Assembly (NCBI GenBank): GCA_029243165.1
Contig: JAQWSN010000012.1
Location: 62,001 to 126,000, forward strand
Direction of reading: 5' to 3'
DNA length: 64,000 nucleotides
DNA from: Flavobacteriaceae bacterium
GTDB lineage: Bacteria > Bacteroidota > Bacteroidia > Flavobacteriales > Flavobacteriaceae
Shown: positions 49,901 to 57,026 of the stretch, in pieces
Layout of the letters: the number at the start of each line of letters is the position of its first letter
Numbering within the stretch: position 1 is the first letter of the stretch
The notes under the pieces: model-generated
What the model saw: only the letters and a program-made list of their open reading frames with translations
What the model was told of the DNA's origin: nothing
The model's database searches: none
Translations under genes and position numbers: made by a program

Positions 49901-50665
49901 CTATTTACGAATGGACTTGATAAATTCTGGGATGCGTTCTACCCCTTGGTGTTCTAGAAATTTGATAAAAGCAGAACCGATGATGGCTCCACGTGCATGG
50001 GCAGTTGCTGCCTCGTAGGTTTCCGCATTACTGATTCCAAATCCGACCACTGTAGGGGTGTTTAGTTTCATTTTTTTAATGCGTTGGAAATAATCCGTTT
50101 GTGCAGAGCCAAAGGTGTTTTTTGCTCCTGTAACACTAGCGCTACTAACCATATAAATAAAACCGTTGGAAACTTTATCAATGAAGTGGATACGCTCCTC
50201 AGAAGTTTGAGGAGTGATCAAAAACATATTGTACAAACCGTGTTGGTTAAATAGGGTTTGGTACTGCTCGTGATAAATATCAACAGGAAGATCGGGTATG
50301 ATGAGTCCATCGATTCCTACTTCTTCACAACGTTGACAAAATTTTTCAATTCCAAATTGCATCATGGGATTAAAGTATCCCATAAGAATCAAGGGAATTT
50401 GTATTTCCTGACGAATTTCCTCCAACTGGGAAAAGAGTTTTTCTGTGGTCATTCCATTGCGTAACGCCTGGGTGGAGCTTTCTTGTATGGTGGGACCATC
50501 CGCTAAGGGATCCGAAAAGGGAAGGCCGATTTCAACCATATCTACTCCCGAAGCTTGAAGCTGTTTTAAAATAGGCACGGTATCTTCCAAATTTGGATGT
50601 CCTGCTGAAAAATAGAGGGACAGTAATTTTTTACCCTCCTTAAATTTTTGATCAATTCGATTCAT
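49901..50665 (-). CDS. trpA: Tryptophan synthase alpha chain
   Basis: A 254-aa TIM-barrel subunit that cleaves indole-3-glycerol phosphate to indole. VEIGLPFSDPLADGPTIQESS (residues ~40-60) contains the catalytic Glu and Asp region, with ILMGYFNPMM, GLIIPDLPVD and VGFGISNAETY as further blocks. Length is slightly short of 268 but complete. Last gene of the trpEGDCFBA operon; its ATG overlaps the trpB stop by one base. Confidence 0.98.
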   Translation of the reverse strand: MNRIDQKFKEGKKLLSLYFSAGHPNLEDTVPILKQLQASGVDMVEIGLPFSDPLADGPTIQESSTQALRNGMTTEKLFSQLEEIRQEIQIPLILMGYFNPMMQFGIEKFCQRCEEVGIDGLIIPDLPVDIYHEQYQTLFNQHGLYNMFLITPQTSEERIHFIDKVSNGFIYMVSSASVTGAKNTFGSAQTDYFQRIKKMKLNTPTVVGFGISNAETYEAATAHARGAIIGSAFIKFLEHQGVERIPEFIKSIRK

Positions 50666-51846
50666 TACAGTTTAAAATAATCAATGTAGGTATCCAGGTC
50701 TTTATCACCACGACCGGAACAGTTAAACACAACAATTTCTTCAGGGCCAAATTTGCACACATCTAATGCGGCAAAGGCATGAGCAGTTTCGATAGCAGGA
50801 ATGATGCCTTCCATTTGCGAGAGAGTCAAGCCCCAATCCATGGCCTCTTGGTCTGGAATGGAGATGAATTTAGCTCGTTGGCTTCGAAACAAATGGGCGT
50901 GCATGGGTCCAACTCCCGGATAATCCAATCCAGCAGAAATGGAATAGGGTTCGGTAATCTGTCCGTCAGGGGTTTGCATCAAGAGCGTTTTACTTCCGTG
51001 AATGATGCCCTCTTTTCCTAGAGCAGAGGTGGCTGCACTTTCTCCAGAATCGATCCCTTTTCCAGCGGCTTCAACAGCAATGATGTTAACCCGTTTGTCA
51101 TTGAGGTAATGGTAGTACAAACCTGCAGCATTACTTCCCCCTCCAACACAGGCGATGACGTGATCAGGATAGTCGCGCCCTTCGGCTTCAGCTAACTGCC
51201 ATTTGGTTTCTTCACTGATTACAGCTTGAAATCGAGCCACCATATCGGGATAAGGATGCGGCCCTACTACAGAACCGATGATGTAATGGGTGTCTACGGG
51301 ATTATTGATCCAATCGCGGATGGCTTCATTGGTAGCGTCTTTTAAGGTTTTGCTCCCAGATTGAGCAGGACGAACTTCTGCCCCTAGCATTTTCATACGA
51401 GCCACATTAGGAGCTTGTCGTTGGATGTCTAATTCACCCATGTAAACGATGCACTCAATTCCCATCAAGGCACAGACCGTGGCGGTAGCTACACCGTGTT
51501 GTCCCGCTCCTGTTTCTGCAATGATACGTTTTTTACCTAGGCGTTGAGCCAAAAGAATTTGCCCAATGGTATTGTTTACTTTATGAGCTCCTGTATGGCA
51601 AAGATCTTCTCGTTTGAGATAAATCTTGGTTTTGTACTTTTCGGATAACCGTTTGGCAAAATACAAAGGAGTAGGTCGTCCGACATACACCTTGAGTAAT
51701 TCGTCAAATTCTTTTTTAAAATCAGGTTCCGCTGTAATACTGAGGTAATTCTGCCGTAACTCTTCTACATTCGGATAGAGCATTTCAGGGATGAAAGCAC
51801 CGCCAAAATCTCCGTAGTATCCTTTTTCATCTACATTAAAGTTCAT
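50665..51846 (-). CDS. trpB: Tryptophan synthase beta chain
   Basis: A 393-aa PLP enzyme condensing indole with serine. The PLP lysine is Lys89 in HTGAHKVNN; GRPTPLYFAKRLSE, the AETGAGQHGVATATVCALMG block and the phosphate-binding ACVGGGSNAAGLYYHY are all present. Standard TrpB1 type that pairs with TrpA next door. Its start overlaps the end of trpF by 11 bases. Confidence 0.98.
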   Translation of the reverse strand: MNFNVDEKGYYGDFGGAFIPEMLYPNVEELRQNYLSITAEPDFKKEFDELLKVYVGRPTPLYFAKRLSEKYKTKIYLKREDLCHTGAHKVNNTIGQILLAQRLGKKRIIAETGAGQHGVATATVCALMGIECIVYMGELDIQRQAPNVARMKMLGAEVRPAQSGSKTLKDATNEAIRDWINNPVDTHYIIGSVVGPHPYPDMVARFQAVISEETKWQLAEAEGRDYPDHVIACVGGGSNAAGLYYHYLNDKRVNIIAVEAAGKGIDSGESAATSALGKEGIIHGSKTLLMQTPDGQITEPYSISAGLDYPGVGPMHAHLFRSQRAKFISIPDQEAMDWGLTLSQMEGIIPAIETAHAFAALDVCKFGPEEIVVFNCSGRGDKDLDTYIDYFKL

Positions 51847-52453
51847 CTAGTTGTTTTTTAAACAGGTTTAAAAGATTTGTATTTTTAAGCCCCGGAGAGC
51901 GTTCAAATTTACTATTTACATCAATAGCAAAAAGGGGTAATGGGGTATTAATTAGTTGTTTGATTTTTTGAAGATCCTCGGGTCCAATTCCGCCGCTTAG
52001 GAAAAAAGGCTTATCTAAAGGATACTCGTTGAGTAAGGACCAGTCAAAAGCATAGCCATTACCACCCGGAAGTGCTCCTTTGGTATCGAAAAGAAAATAA
52101 TCGCAATGTTTTTGATACGCATCCAAAATAGTGAAATCAAAATGGTCTTTGATGGAAAAGGCTTTGATGACTTCTACATTGAATTTTTGGATTAGGGAAC
52201 AATAGTCAGGGGTTTCGTCTCCGTGAAGTTGTACAGCCTTGAGTTGGTGGTTTTGTATGGTGGATTGAATGTAGTCTACCGAGGCATCGACAAAGACCCC
52301 TGTTTTTTTGATAGTATCTGGAAGTTTTGGGGTAGGTTGACTTACATAACGACTGGATGGAGCCCAAAAGATAAAGCCCATGTAGTCGGGTTGTAAAGCC
52401 GTTAGCTTTTCAATATTTTCGAGTTCCCGCATACCACAGACCTTGAGTTTCAT
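51836..52453 (-). CDS. trpF: Phosphoribosylanthranilate isomerase
   Basis: A 205-aa TIM-barrel isomerase. KVCGMRELENIEKL at the N-terminus holds the catalytic Cys; YMGFIFWAPSSRYV, KTGVFVDAS, AVQLHGDETPDYC and LSGGIGPEDL follow the family order, with DVNSKFERSPGLKN at the end. It is a separate gene, not fused to trpC as in enterobacteria. Four-base overlap with trpC. Confidence 0.97.
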   Translation of the reverse strand: MKLKVCGMRELENIEKLTALQPDYMGFIFWAPSSRYVSQPTPKLPDTIKKTGVFVDASVDYIQSTIQNHQLKAVQLHGDETPDYCSLIQKFNVEVIKAFSIKDHFDFTILDAYQKHCDYFLFDTKGALPGGNGYAFDWSLLNEYPLDKPFFLSGGIGPEDLQKIKQLINTPLPLFAIDVNSKFERSPGLKNTNLLNLFKKQLDEL

Positions 52454-53235
52454 CCTTCCAATTGATTAATAAATTGATGTGCAGCTTTGCCAGGAGTATC
52501 TGTTTTCATAAAATTCTCACCCACTAAAAATCCTTGATAGCCAAAGGTTTGTAATTCTTGAATGTCCAGAGCATTGGCGATTCCGCTTTCCGATACTTTA
52601 ACAAATTCGCTTGGAATTAAAGGAGCCAGTTGGCGGCTTGTTTCAAGGGATACTTCGAAAGTTTTTAGATTGCGGTTGTTGACTCCAATCATATCTAGGG
52701 TAGGCATCAACGACTTTTCTAGTTCTTCTTGATTGTGAACTTCGAGTAAAACCTCTAAATTTAATTGTTGGGCTTTTGTGGAAAGCTGTTGGATTTCCTC
52801 GCGTTCTAAAACAGCTGCAATGAGTAAAATAAGATCTGCTCCATGGGCTTTTGCTTCAATCAATTGGTATTCATCAACGACAAATTCTTTACGAAGTAGG
52901 GGAAAATGGGTTACCGCTCTTGCAAGACTTAGATCATCCAAGGAACCTCCAAAATATTTTCCATCGGTAAGTACTGACATTCCACAAACTCCCGCTTTTT
53001 CATAACCTATTGCTACCTCACTTACCGATAGGTTGCTGTTGATGTTTTTTTTAGAAGGGGAACGTCTTTTGTGCTCTGCGATAATTCCTGAGCGACTTTC
53101 TTTTAATCGGTTGCTCAGGGAATTTAGCCCACGGTCAAATAAGGGTGAAGCTTCCCAATAGGAGGATGGAAAAAGGGTTTTCCGATGTACAACCTCATTT
53201 TTTTTGTCAGCAACAATGCGGTCTAAAATATTCAT
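52450..53235 (-). CDS. trpC: Indole-3-glycerol phosphate synthase
   Basis: A 261-aa TIM-barrel enzyme. IIAEHKRRSPSKKNIN (catalytic Lys region), ISVLTDGKYFGGS-like CGMSVLTDGKYFGGSLDDL, LRKEFVVDEYQ, LEVHNQEELEKSL, IGVNNRNLKTFEV and VSESGIANA cover the standard motifs. Overlaps trpD and trpF by four bases each, indicating tight translational coupling across the operon. Confidence 0.98.
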   Translation of the reverse strand: MNILDRIVADKKNEVVHRKTLFPSSYWEASPLFDRGLNSLSNRLKESRSGIIAEHKRRSPSKKNINSNLSVSEVAIGYEKAGVCGMSVLTDGKYFGGSLDDLSLARAVTHFPLLRKEFVVDEYQLIEAKAHGADLILLIAAVLEREEIQQLSTKAQQLNLEVLLEVHNQEELEKSLMPTLDMIGVNNRNLKTFEVSLETSRQLAPLIPSEFVKVSESGIANALDIQELQTFGYQGFLVGENFMKTDTPGKAAHQFINQLEG

Positions 53236-54227
53236 GATTGACTCAATTTTTGAAGTGTTTTAAAGGCAGCGAGTGCTTTTCCAGATTCTAGAGCAACTTT
53301 GGCTTTTTCAAAACCTTCTAGGGGAGTTAAATTCAATGAAGTTGCAAGAGCCATTCCTGCGTTAGCACAGACTACATTTTGTTGTTCTTGACTTCCTTTA
53401 TTTTGTAAAATATCCATAAAAATAGTCGCTGACGATGTTATGTTATCCCCTCCTGCAATCGCAGTTGCCTTATGGGCAGATACTCCAAAATCTTGAGGAG
53501 CTAGAACCCGTTCACCCTCATTGCTGAAAGCTTTGGTTGCTCCCGTGAGTGAAATTTCATCGTAGCCGTCTAGCGCATACAGGACAGTAAATCGAGTTTC
53601 TGTTTTCTGAAAAAGATAATAATACAAACGGGCTAATTCTAAATTAAAAACCCCTGTGAGTTGGTATTTTGGAAAAGCAGGATTTACCAAAGGTCCCAGC
53701 ATATTAAAAAAAGTTTTTACTCCGAGTTCTTTTCGAACAGGAGCCACATTTTTCATTGCGGGATGGAAAAGCGGCGCGTGTAATATGCAGATTCCAGCCT
53801 GATCCACAGAGCGTTTTAAAAAGTCAATCTCATTTGAAAAACGAATGCCCAAAGCTTCGAGAACGTTACTAGATCCACAACCTGAAGAGACTCCGTAATT
53901 TCCGTGCTTGGTTACTTTGACTCCTGCTCCGGCGGTTACAAAAGCTGAAAGGGTCGAGATGTTGAAGGTGTTTTTTTCGTCACCTCCTGTACCGCACAAA
54001 TCGATAGCATTGAACTCACTTAGATCTACAGAAACACACAATTCCAGCAAGGCAGATCGAAAACCTTCGAGTTCTTCCAGACTGATGCTACGCATCATAA
54101 AGACCGTTAAAAAGGAGGCTATTTGAGAAGTATTGTATTGACCCTCAGCAATGTCGATGATCACTTTTCTAGCCTGTTCTTTTGAGAGCGGTTCGTGTTG
54201 TATGAGTTGATTGAGGATGGCTTTCAT
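53232..54227 (-). CDS. trpD: Anthranilate phosphoribosyltransferase
   Basis: A 331-aa enzyme joining anthranilate and PRPP. The PRPP/anthranilate loop is DLCGTGGDEKNTFNISTLSA (residues ~76-95), with KHGNYGVSSGCGSSNVLEALG, HPAMKNVAPVRKELG and NMLGPLVNPA as further signature blocks. Complete and not fused to trpG. ATGA overlap with trpG upstream and trpC downstream. Confidence 0.98.
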   Translation of the reverse strand: MKAILNQLIQHEPLSKEQARKVIIDIAEGQYNTSQIASFLTVFMMRSISLEELEGFRSALLELCVSVDLSEFNAIDLCGTGGDEKNTFNISTLSAFVTAGAGVKVTKHGNYGVSSGCGSSNVLEALGIRFSNEIDFLKRSVDQAGICILHAPLFHPAMKNVAPVRKELGVKTFFNMLGPLVNPAFPKYQLTGVFNLELARLYYYLFQKTETRFTVLYALDGYDEISLTGATKAFSNEGERVLAPQDFGVSAHKATAIAGGDNITSSATIFMDILQNKGSQEQQNVVCANAGMALATSLNLTPLEGFEKAKVALESGKALAAFKTLQKLSQS

Positions 54228-54793
54228 GTACTACTATTAATCCAGTTTTCTAATATTTTTTTACCTAAGGGAGTCAATACGGATTCCGGATGGTATTGAA
54301 CAGCTCGAACATCATAGGTTTTATGGCGCAAGGACATTAGTTGCCCGTGCTCATCTACCGAGGTGGCTTCAAGCGCTTCGGGTAGGGGAGTGTCAACGAC
54401 CCAAGAGTGGTATCGACCCACTTCAAAAGTTTGGGGCAAATCTTTAAATAAGACATCTTCTTTGATAATATGTACAGGGGTTGCGATACCGTGGTACACC
54501 TTGTCAAGATTGATGAGCGACCCTCCAAAAACCTCACCAATGGCCTGCTGACCTAGACAGATTCCTAATATTTTCTTGACCGGAGCATAGCGTTTGATTG
54601 CTTTTTTTAGCAAGCCGGATTCGTCGGGGATTCCTGGTCCAGGAGAAAGCAGAATATTGGGGTAATCTTCTAATTCATCTAATTCAAATTGATCGTTTCG
54701 TTTGACCATCACTTCACAATTGAGTTCATTTAAATAATGAACCAGATTGTAGGTAAATGAGTCGTAATTATCAATGACAAATACTTTTTTCAT
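54224..54793 (-). CDS. trpG: Anthranilate synthase component II (glutamine amidotransferase)
   Basis: A 189-aa class I amidotransferase giving ammonia to TrpE. IDNYDSFTYNLVHYL at the start, LLSPGPGIPDESGLL, the nucleophile Cys in ILGICLGQQAIGEVFGG, and the His-Glu pair in AVQYHPESVLT. Bacterial PabA/TrpG cannot be separated by sequence alone; the operon makes TrpG sure, with a possible second role in folate synthesis. Overlaps trpE by four bases. Confidence 0.97.
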   Translation of the reverse strand: MKKVFVIDNYDSFTYNLVHYLNELNCEVMVKRNDQFELDELEDYPNILLSPGPGIPDESGLLKKAIKRYAPVKKILGICLGQQAIGEVFGGSLINLDKVYHGIATPVHIIKEDVLFKDLPQTFEVGRYHSWVVDTPLPEALEATSVDEHGQLMSLRHKTYDVRAVQYHPESVLTPLGKKILENWINSST

Positions 54794-56193
54794 GATACTT
54801 GTTCTGCTAGGGTTAGAGCCTTGTCTAAGGCCCCTAATTTGTTGTACACTTCTTGCAATTCGTTTTCAGGAACTGAATCGGCGACGATACCAGCACCTGC
54901 TTGATAGTGCAATTGATTTTTTTGACTTAAAAAGGATCGGATGATGATGGCGTGATTGAAATTTCCTTCAAAGTCTAGATATCCGATGGCTCCTCCGTAA
55001 AAGTTTCGTTTGTTTTTTTCATAGCGATCGATAAGCTGTAATGCTTTGTGTTTGGGAGCCCCACTCAGAGTACCTGCGGGAAAGGTATCCGCAACCACTT
55101 GGAAGGTTTTTACCCAATCTTTCATTTTACAACTTACTTTTGAAACCAAATGAATGACATGGGAATAAAATTGAATTTCTCGATTTTTTTCTACAATAAC
55201 TTCAGAACCATTTCTACTCAAATCATTTCGTGCCAAATCAACCAGCATGACGTGTTCGCTGTTTTCTTTTGGATCTTTTGATAACTCCAAAGCTGAAGCA
55301 GCATCCTCTTGGTCATTCCCTGTTCTTTTGAAGGTACCTGCAATGGGGTGAATCTCCGCTTTTCCTTCATGAACAATCAGTTGAGCTTCAGGAGAGCTAC
55401 CAAATATTTTAAAATTACCGTAGTCAAAATAAAATAAATAGGGGGAAGGGTTTATGGAGCGTAAGGTGCGATACACATTAAAATCGTCTCCTTGGAAACG
55501 CTGACTAAACCGTCGGGATAAAACCAATTGAAATACATCGCCCCGATAACAGTGCTGTTTCCCTTGGTTTACAAACTCTAGAAATTCAGCATCGGTTAGG
55601 TTTGAGGTTTTAGTTCCTATTTTTTCAAAGCGGAACTTACTTTGTTGTTTACCATTAATGAGTTGTTCTAAATGATCCAGATTATGAACTCCATCTAAAT
55701 TGTGAGAAAATAGGTGGGCTTCATGATTAAAAAGACTTATCGCAATAATATTTTGATACACTGCGTAGTAAATATCTGGAATATCTTGTCCTTCTTTATC
55801 ATTATTGAGTTCAAGCTGTTCGAAGTACTGCACAGCATCGTGAGCGATGTAACCGAAGATGCCGTTACTGATAAATTTAAAAGGGTATTTTTTTGTTTTG
55901 AATTGTTGAGAGAACGTATGAATTTTTTCAGGGACGTCGGTGTCATTAGTTACTTCAATTCGGTCGCTGCTTCCGTCTGGATATTGGGTAACTAAAATTC
56001 CATTTTTTAATTCAATGGACGCAATAGGATTACAGCATATGTAAGAGAAGTCATTATTATTAGCATGGTAGTCGCTACTTTCCAATAAAAGGCTGTGGGG
56101 AAATACGTCACGAATTTTAAGGTAAACACTTACCGGAGTAAGGGTATCTGCTAAAATTTTTTTATGTTCAGATTGAAGGGTAAAACGCTTCAT
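54790..56193 (-). CDS. trpE: Anthranilate synthase component I
   Basis: A 467-aa chorismate-using enzyme. The N-terminal domain contains the feedback-site segment LLLESSDYHANNNDFSYI; the C-terminal domain has QLVLSRRFSQRF, SPYLFYFDYGNFKIFGSSPE, HPIAGTFKRTGND, LVDLARNDLSRNG and SGAPKHKALQLIDRYE. The ATG at 56193 is chosen because the alternative at 56229 lies inside the leader terminator. Transcription into trpE must pass the attenuator at 56206-56234. Confidence 0.97.
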   Translation of the reverse strand: MKRFTLQSEHKKILADTLTPVSVYLKIRDVFPHSLLLESSDYHANNNDFSYICCNPIASIELKNGILVTQYPDGSSDRIEVTNDTDVPEKIHTFSQQFKTKKYPFKFISNGIFGYIAHDAVQYFEQLELNNDKEGQDIPDIYYAVYQNIIAISLFNHEAHLFSHNLDGVHNLDHLEQLINGKQQSKFRFEKIGTKTSNLTDAEFLEFVNQGKQHCYRGDVFQLVLSRRFSQRFQGDDFNVYRTLRSINPSPYLFYFDYGNFKIFGSSPEAQLIVHEGKAEIHPIAGTFKRTGNDQEDAASALELSKDPKENSEHVMLVDLARNDLSRNGSEVIVEKNREIQFYSHVIHLVSKVSCKMKDWVKTFQVVADTFPAGTLSGAPKHKALQLIDRYEKNKRNFYGGAIGYLDFEGNFNHAIIIRSFLSQKNQLHYQAGAGIVADSVPENELQEVYNKLGALDKALTLAEQVS

Positions 56194-56205
56194 GTTGGTT
56201 CCATT

Positions 56206-56234
56206 AAAAAAGGCTTGTCGTGATGACAAGCCTT
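56206..56234 (-). terminator. trp attenuator: intrinsic terminator
   Basis: On the minus strand AAGGCTTGTC (56234-56225), loop ATCAC, GACAAGCCTT (56219-56210) make a perfect ten-pair stem ending in a run of six T (to 56206). It lies between the leader peptide stop (56265) and the trpE ATG (56193), only 13 bases before that ATG. Confidence 0.92.
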
Positions 56235-56264
56235 GAGATTATTTGTACGGGTTGGTTCACGAGT

Positions 56265-56318
56265 TCATTGTTGAAGCGCGTACCACCATCCGTTTAAAAA
56301 AATTATTGTTCGGTTCAT
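56265..56318 (-). CDS. trpL: trp operon leader peptide (tandem Trp)
   Basis: A 17-residue frame, MNRTIIFLNGWWYALQQ then TGA, with two adjacent TGG codons (56288-56283). It is followed 30 bases later by the terminator hairpin ahead of trpE. This is the layout of ribosome-mediated attenuation: when charged tRNA-Trp is scarce the ribosome stalls at the Trp pair and the terminator should not form. The leader segment GGATGGTGG (overlapping the Trp codons) can pair roughly with ACCAACCC (near 56250), which would supply the 1:2 structure; I could not assign a clear antiterminator. Confidence 0.85.
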   Translation of the reverse strand: MNRTIIFLNGWWYALQQ

Positions 56319-56323
56319 TAAAT

Positions 56324-56355
56324 CAAATATAGTACAAAATGTTTATTAACCCCAA
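56324..56355 (-). promoter_or_regulatory. trp operon promoter
   Basis: On the minus strand TTG (56355-56353), 21 bases, then TATATTTG (56331-56324): both Bacteroidota elements match exactly with spacing inside 17-23. Transcription should begin about six bases after the -7 element, that is at or within a few bases of the leader peptide ATG (56318). Confidence 0.7.
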
Positions 56356-56372
56356 ATCCCCGAACAATAATA

Positions 56373-56456
56373 TTATTTTTTAGCGTGTGAACCGTCACAG
56401 AATCCATTTGGATTTTGGGTATTCCCACAACCGCACTTTGGTCTATTTATTTTCAT
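56373..56456 (-). CDS. 27-aa CDGSH iron-sulfur protein
   Basis: A very short gene: MKINRPKCGCGNTQNPNG then FCDGSHAKK and TAA. The Cys8-x-Cys10-x9-Cys20-x3-His24 set is the three-Cys, one-His [2Fe-2S] ligand pattern of CDGSH (mitoNEET-like) proteins, with the literal CDGSH present. It begins four bases after the yceI stop, so it is the last gene of marR-yceI-CDGSH. At 27 residues it is about the minimum that could hold the motif. Such domains bind redox-active, labile clusters; the partner is unknown. Confidence 0.85.
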   Translation of the reverse strand: MKINRPKCGCGNTQNPNGFCDGSHAKK

Positions 56457-56459
56457 AGT

Positions 56460-57026
56460 TTAGAATTTTAAGTTAATATCCAACTCAAACTCATCATCAA
56501 TTGCTTTGTCTCCTAAATTGTCAAAAAAGCTGTTTGATCCATAACGCACATTGTATTTGGATCGATCTATGACTAGTTTGGCCATGGCTTTATTTCCTTC
56601 CATATGCATTTCAAAATTAATTGGATGCGTGATTCCTTTAATGGTTAAATCCGCTGATACAAGATGATGATTTTCCATTTTCATCTCGCTTTTTGTGATT
56701 ACTAAGGAAGCCTTTGGAAATTTTTTTACACCAAAAAAATCATCAGACTTTAAGTGCCCTTCTAGTTTGTCTTTGTATGTTCCAGTTAGGTCAGTACACA
56801 TGATGCTAGACATGTCAACAATAAAACTCCCGCCAGCAAGTTGCTTTCCATCCAATTCGAATCCACCCTCAATAAAATTGATGTTTCCTTCATGTTGTCC
56901 AGTAACTTTTTTTGCCAACCAATGGATGTTGCTTTCACCAGGATTTATCTTGATAACTGCAGACTGACCCCAAGCTGTAGTTGCTACTGCAAGTAACAGG
57001 GTAATTAAACTAATTTTCTTTTTCAT
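56460..57026 (-). CDS. YceI family periplasmic protein
   Basis: A 188-aa secreted lipocalin-like protein: signal peptide ending near ATTAWGQS, then INPGESNIHWLAKKVTGQHEG, GSFIVDMSSIMCTDL, FFGVKKFPKASLVITK, DLTIKGITHPINFEMHM and FELDINLKF. YceI proteins bind polyisoprenoids in a long hydrophobic tunnel. Placed directly under a MarR regulator and ahead of the CDGSH gene; the trio may respond to redox or quinone-like compounds (inference). Confidence 0.94.
   Translation of the reverse strand: MKKKISLITLLLAVATTAWGQSAVIKINPGESNIHWLAKKVTGQHEGNINFIEGGFELDGKQLAGGSFIVDMSSIMCTDLTGTYKDKLEGHLKSDDFFGVKKFPKASLVITKSEMKMENHHLVSADLTIKGITHPINFEMHMEGNKAMAKLVIDRSKYNVRYGSNSFFDNLGDKAIDDEFELDINLKF

Follow-up and report, generated by a model that had tools for sequence, protein, structure and literature searches.

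A trp operon leader in Flavobacteriaceae with the layout of a ribosome-mediated attenuator and a candidate antiterminator directed at the terminator loop

The trp leader of Escherichia coli has the alternative stems 1:2, 2:3 and 3:4. A comparative attenuation study by Lopatovskaya and others (2010) reportedly may list leaders from Bacteroidetes. For Flavobacterium psychrophilum, the main text of a transcriptome study of 2021 presents strong clues that operons for amino acids are controlled by leader-peptide attenuation, and it lists 5' elements upstream of pheA and hisG that are conserved in the family (PMC9723704). This main text contains neither 'trp' nor 'tryptophan', and its attenuation section is without antiterminator geometry. 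A preliminary description of the locus presented here had called attenuation much less documented in Bacteroidota; this has to be amended in so far as attenuation by leader peptides has been published for a flavobacterium (PMC9723704). A trp attenuator RNA that begins at the leader ATG, a small leaderless mRNA, is described in the open-access text on trpL/rnTrpL of Sinorhizobium meliloti, an alphaproteobacterium in which both the leader peptide and the attenuated RNA have functions in trans (PMC7298713). The main text of PMC2965389 contains neither 'Bacteroid' nor 'Flavobacter', and in the open-access texts covered (including PMC4833913, PMC7366714, PMC1262725 on Actinobacteria, and PMC7298713) a trp leader of the family, its leaderless start and a loop-directed antiterminator were not found.

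The window analysed here, a 64-kb stretch of DNA from a marine flavobacterium, carries the operon trpEGDCFBA on its minus strand. A promoter of the TAnnTTTG type, a leader of 17 codons and a T6 terminator of ten pairs are all located 5' of trpE (Table 1). These parts had been claimed in the preliminary description, and all of them were recovered in place. The upstream TTTG is a motif that we take to be the -33 element in Bacteroidota. Four ATG-initiated ORFs of up to 40 codons with adjacent Trp codons occur on both strands of the 64 kb, and the other three (starts 21522 on the plus strand, 43745 and 42675 on the minus strand) lie outside the trp operon. The leader RNA folds more stably than most dinucleotide shuffles (3/200 at least equal, z -2.5). 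Like E. coli trpL, the locus combines a short ORF with two adjacent Trp codons, a U-run terminator and trpE as the next gene; unlike trpL, the leader has no match to Rfam models. As in F. psychrophilum (main text of PMC9723704), leader-peptide attenuation before an amino-acid operon is inferred. Read from the sequence, the features of a ribosome-mediated trp attenuator are present, i.e. a WW leader before trp genes, an intrinsic terminator and putative 1:2, 2:3 and 3:4 stems that share bases. It is likely that the element attenuates transcription of trpEGDCFBA in a ribosome-mediated manner, with antitermination through region 2 and the terminator loop plus 3' shoulder; the layout, the operon and the conservation of the leader support the attenuation reading of the preliminary description in outline.

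Table 1. Parts of the trp leader region and operon, in positions of the 64-kb window
Feature	Position	Strand	Basis or remark
TTTG, -33-like element	56353-56356	-	direct reading; 21 nt ahead of -7 box
-7 box TATATTTG	56324-56331	-	direct reading
leader ORF MNRTIIFLNGWWYALQQ, 17 aa + stop	56265-56318	-	ATG 56318; direct reading, kept in relatives
two adjacent Trp codons of leader	56283-56288	-	direct reading
leader stop UGA	56265-56267	-	direct reading
1:2 stem (protector)	56247-56293	-	minimum-energy fold
region 2, UCGUGA, core of candidate antiterminator	56257-56262	-	just 3' of leader stop
region 2, second half, CAA.CC	56249-56254	-	pairing possible with GG.UUG of terminator 5' arm
region 3, UCACGA, four loop bases + first two of 3' arm	56218-56223	-	alignment, 26 near relatives
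terminator hairpin AAGGCUUGUC-AUCAC-GACAAGCCUU	56210-56234	-	ten perfect pairs
terminator 5' arm	56225-56234	-	
terminator loop AUCAC	56220-56224	-	
terminator 3' arm	56210-56219	-	
T6 tract	56206-56211	-	first two T are last two bases of 3' arm
trpE, first controlled gene	54790-56193	-	ATG 56193; Pfam Anth_synt_I_N + Chorismate_bind
trpG, trpD, trpC, trpF, trpB, trpA, contiguous 3' of trpE	49901-54793	-	Pfam, in order

A TrpE search provided the 40 nearest genomes, 24 of them of the same genus, and 20 of these had usable loci (L004-L021, L027, L029), with the trpE 5' end plus preceding DNA in hand; two (G002, G014) had no match, one (G018) a weak match only, and one (G013) ends inside the gene. 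Close relatives that lack the tandem Trp codons or the hairpin, named in the preliminary description as speaking against attenuation, were not observed: the WW leader and the terminator are kept in 20/20 usable same-genus loci. An adjacent-Trp leader is also present in 5/5 trpE loci from other families of the order (L023-L026, L028), after matches at about 28-33% identity (e.g. L030-L032) had been taken as paralogues and excluded. Among the best 80 genome loci, some of which come from genomes already among the 40 nearest, 79 have a Trp leader before trpE, and in the sole exception (L042) just 34 nt precede the gene. Seven of the 79 leaders were missed by the first script: the leader of L046 has a GTG start codon, and those of L065, L088, L094, L098, L105 and L107 end 433-528 nt 5' of trpE because of a small ORF in between. 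The latter six are Muricauda/Flagellimonas and Salegentibacter records. The intervening ORF encodes a GIY-YIG domain protein in L065 and L107, the two tested, and from its position would be co-transcribed with trp.

At the level of the phylum, 198 out of a spread of 296 genomes matched at 1e-80, and the upstream DNA of 89 was examined, best-matching first. An adjacent-Trp leader is found in 80/89 of these loci: 29/29 (L113-L141, in part the same genomes as in the best-80 set), 36/40 (L142-L181) and 15/20 in a low-scoring group (L187-L206). With a 300-nt limit, the detection recovered WW leaders in 51/60 upstream regions of other genomes (L142-L181, L187-L206), against 34/1200 dinucleotide shuffles and 2/60 reverse strands; since the controls also match, a few individual leader calls may be due to chance. 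A terminator follows the leader in 152 distinct sequences according to our script. Leaders lacking a scripted terminator are those of L070, L130 and L157; of these, L070 and L130 have a hairpin whose T-run is interrupted or short. The window's genus has WW, and Flavobacteriaceae of other genera mostly have WWW (near MKTILNNTWWWNNLRQSS). In a sample of leader peptides dominated by one family, Asn precedes the Trp run at position -2 in 100/154 and at -3 in 80/154. An element that does not sense Trp, i.e. a terminator that acts constitutively behind the remnant of a small ORF, or one that belongs to the upstream genes, is very improbable given Trp leaders in 79 of the best 80 loci and in 80/89 phylum loci, the low control counts and the scripted terminators. 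Still less probable is another device (T-box, riboswitch or TRAP-type protein) with an incidental leader ORF: the window contains no Rfam family at gathering score, and a scan of 55700-56900 with E up to 5 yielded just two sub-cut-off snoRNA matches, both upstream of the leader. The Trp_leader model, presumably RF00513, and the T-box and riboswitch models matched neither the window at gathering score nor 55700-56900 at E up to 5.

The -7 box ends 4 nt (4 sequences), 5 nt (17) or 6 nt (3) ahead of the leader ATG in 24/24 distinct close relatives including the window, four of which (L036, L038-L040) were admitted by a TrpE identity of at least 80% and not by taxonomy. The TAnnTTTG box of F. psychrophilum occupies positions -12 to -5 (main text of PMC9723704), which puts the predicted transcription start of the window near 56319, 0-2 nt before the ATG. 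Because of this box position and the short spacing, the leader mRNA is probably leaderless; unlike in E. coli trpL, no more than about 2 nt would separate its predicted 5' end from the AUG, and in this prediction it resembles S. meliloti rnTrpL (open-access text of PMC7298713). In 80 other Flavobacteriaceae with an exact box the spacing peaks at 4-5 nt (29) and 16-18 nt (35), and six others have no exact box. Loci titled Flavobacterium (n=25) show 16-18 nt in 18 cases and 4 nt in five. Spacing is scattered in 28 non-family sequences with a box (13 at 4-6 nt), and 16 further ones are without an exact box. Leaderless mRNAs are uncommon in Bacteroidota, as judged from the open-access texts: about 3.7% of 5' UTRs are shorter than 10 nt in Bacteroides thetaiotaomicron (PMC7366714), and 5.5% of mRNAs are leaderless in F. 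psychrophilum (PMC9723704).

The trp promoter is flanked by an 18-nt inverted repeat (89%; 56296-56313 and 56360-56377). Its right arm falls within the opening codons of the leader and is continued by T7. In five of the 24 close relatives the exact arms measure 12-13 nt, and in the remainder they are shorter. The motif TTATTGTTCGG has three copies in the genome, two of them at the trp promoter, and the reversed control pattern has two copies. This repeat may be an operator, or a terminator of the upstream genes.

Only a partial 1:2 pairing had been noted in the preliminary description; a fuller stem was now found. It is the minimum-energy fold (-15.1 kcal/mol) of the transcript up to the terminator in the absence of a ribosome, consists of ACGG:CCGU, UGGU:ACCA, CGCG:CGUG and UUCA:UGAA, and encloses both Trp codons and the stop codon. 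An imitation of region 3 stands 3' of the Trp codons, as CACGA, UACGCG or UUACG. Regions 1 and 2 are both altered in L016 (CACAAU with AUUGUG), and the corresponding place is occupied by CAAAA with UUUUG in L044 and by CGAA with UUCG in L045. Region 2 fits its own region 1 better than non-cognate ones (p 0.008 in 17 near relatives, p 0.027 in 36 representatives), in a test in which the best ungapped helix of the window, GUACG:CGUAC, is not in register with the minimum-energy stem and only weak helices were obtained for L013 and L014.

In the proposed mechanism, the leader transcript would start 0-2 nt before the leader AUG. When Trp is plentiful, the leader ribosome would reach the stop codon and mask region 2, the terminator would form and RNA polymerase would halt near 56206. 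When charged tRNA-Trp is scarce, the ribosome would stall on the two Trp codons and mask region 1; the free UCGUGA could then capture the nascent terminator loop and 3' shoulder (UCACGA), aided by pairing of CAA.CC with the 5' arm, and transcription would continue into trpE. In a leader that is not translated, region 1 would pair with region 2 and the terminator would form. Once the 2:3 pairing is complete, no bases remain to bridge region 3 to the lower 3' arm, so a pseudoknot with the lower terminator stem would not be expected.

Masked folds give the 2:3 pairing (-8.8) with a ribosome stalled at either Trp codon and the polymerase just past region 3, and the terminator (-15.3) with the ribosome at the stop codon. 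Once the whole leader is made, the terminator is still the minimum with the ribosome stalled (-15.5), so antitermination in the window would depend on timing. In the same full-leader stalled folds of four relatives the antiterminator wins in L055 and L073 and loses in L016 and L062. The ribosome dependence is thus modelled, with a mixed result, and within these models the timing requirement is the weakest link of the attenuator for the window.

For the antiterminator, which the preliminary description had found not to be clear, a candidate exists in region 2, which can pair with the loop and the upper 3' arm of the terminator. In Flavobacteriaceae-type sequences UCGUGA, the complement of UCACGA, overlaps or follows the leader stop codon. 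In the alignment of 26 near relatives the loop AUCAC is nearly invariant and the spacer before it drifts. Flavobacteriaceae-type terminators (n=105) have loops of 3-7 nt; the loop is AUCAC in 73 of them and contains CAC in 101. The duplex between the post-Trp segment and the terminator is more stable than dinucleotide shuffles (p<=0.05) in 85/105 Flavobacteriaceae-type and 17/44 other distinct sequences; for the window alone the 2:3 pairing is not significant (duplex p 0.124, helix p 0.133). Within the family, the 2:3 pairs are formed in 91.6% of cells (26 near relatives) and 94.9% (82 others), and in 3-75% for slid versions; in L009 and L014 region 2 is shifted in the MAFFT alignment, so that this count understates their pairing. 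Changes on both sides affect no pair in the 26 sequences and one pair in the 82. As covariation is nearly absent within the family, support was drawn from the comparison between families. The case for the proposed 2:3 pairing, a matter of sequence comparison, lies in conservation inside the family and in matched change only between families.

Outside the family the loops vary and region 2 varies in step, with GAGAAGC/GCUUCUC (L024, L028) and the further matched sets of region 2 and loop UUGAAUCGG/CCGAUUCAA (L152), GAUGAACA/UGUUCAUC (L159) and CUCAGUGA/UCACUGAG (L181). Over 36 representatives, region 2 fits its own loop better than non-cognate ones (z -7.0, p 5e-5), the segment of the window ranking 4/36 for its own loop; the representatives were chosen by hand to cover a range of families and loops, with several from the same family, and the loop letters are identical in L024/L028 and in L163/L164. 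The cognate fit to the 5' arm of the terminator in the same set is likewise significant (z -4.4, p 5e-5). This latter fit is what would be expected of an attenuator in which region 2 acts on the 5' arm, as in E. coli trp, with the loop kept otherwise, e.g. for protein contact. Such an arrangement agrees also with a loop and region 2 that are frozen and do not covary within the family; the differing loops with matching region 2 in other families argue against it.

Loop-directed and 5'-arm-directed helices were compared as single ungapped helices, one being called stronger if it led by more than 1 score unit. Flavobacteriaceae-type sequences (n=106) are loop-directed in 103 cases, arm-directed in none and undecided in three, versus 34%, 24% and 42% of their shuffles (3180). 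The others (n=43, with L178-L180 placed here although they belong taxonomically to the window's family) comprise 20 loop-directed, 17 arm-directed and six undecided sequences, versus 24%, 45% and 31% of shuffles (1290); at p<=0.05 the loop helix is significant in 15/43 and the 5'-arm helix in 9/43. The 17 arm-directed sequences are on the side of a 5'-arm mechanism, which is opposed by the absence of arm-directed cases within the family. For the window itself, a 5'-arm antiterminator of the E. coli type was rejected, its best helix (p 0.90 against shuffles) being no better than chance. Having weighed these points, we hold action on the 5' arm to be unlikely and retain loop capture as the preferred reading.

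The best duplex spans the loop in 105/105 family sequences, a count set aside as weak evidence, given that the same is seen in 82% of the family shuffles and in 91% of those of the others (real 38/44). The helix-strength comparison withstood the shuffle control that undid this count. At least three loop bases plus one 3'-arm base are paired in 104/105 family sequences versus 46% of shuffles; outside the family the same count, 22/44 versus 55% of shuffles, shows no excess.

On the same score, region 2 of E. coli trpL (L186) is arm-directed, unlike that of the window. With the segment cut by its distance from the stop codon and not from the regulatory codons, the E. coli K-12 trp, thr, leu, phe and ilv leaders are arm-directed (phe and leu narrowly) and his is loop-directed. 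Five of these six leaders, together with the his and phe leaders of the window's own genome, which have arm-directed antiterminators, give weight to a 5'-arm mechanism. Loop capture finds a partial precedent in E. coli hisL (L209), with a loop-directed score of -12.8 versus -8.6; the hisL helix extends from the 5' arm over three loop bases and stops short of the 3' arm, which that of the window does reach.

Further amino-acid leaders occur in the genome. The hisG leader (L182, C20), MTKKSTHKHHINTRSNEV, has His codons and a terminator, and its box lies by eye 8 nt from the ATG; the pheA leader (L185, C26), MKNKFSYYNAFYYFFNEAGGTL, has Phe and Tyr codons and a terminator. No leader was seen by eye upstream of ilvD (L183).

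Overall, the switch is of a known kind and its RNA arrangement seems unusual. We lean slightly towards loop capture, in which Flavobacteriaceae and several other Bacteroidota families would use an antiterminator that seizes the nascent loop and 3' shoulder, and not the 5' arm, on a leaderless mRNA and in a race against closure of the terminator. A loop-directed antiterminator may account for failed searches for an E. coli-like one, and loop capture, if true, would set these leaders apart as a structural class of their own among ribosome-mediated attenuators. Ribosome-mediated attenuation demands that the ribosome stay near RNA polymerase. With a trp attenuator in most Bacteroidota loci examined, and with the his and phe leaders, coupling in this phylum becomes testable by reporter; loop capture, if true, would demand that ribosome and polymerase be closely coupled in Bacteroidota.
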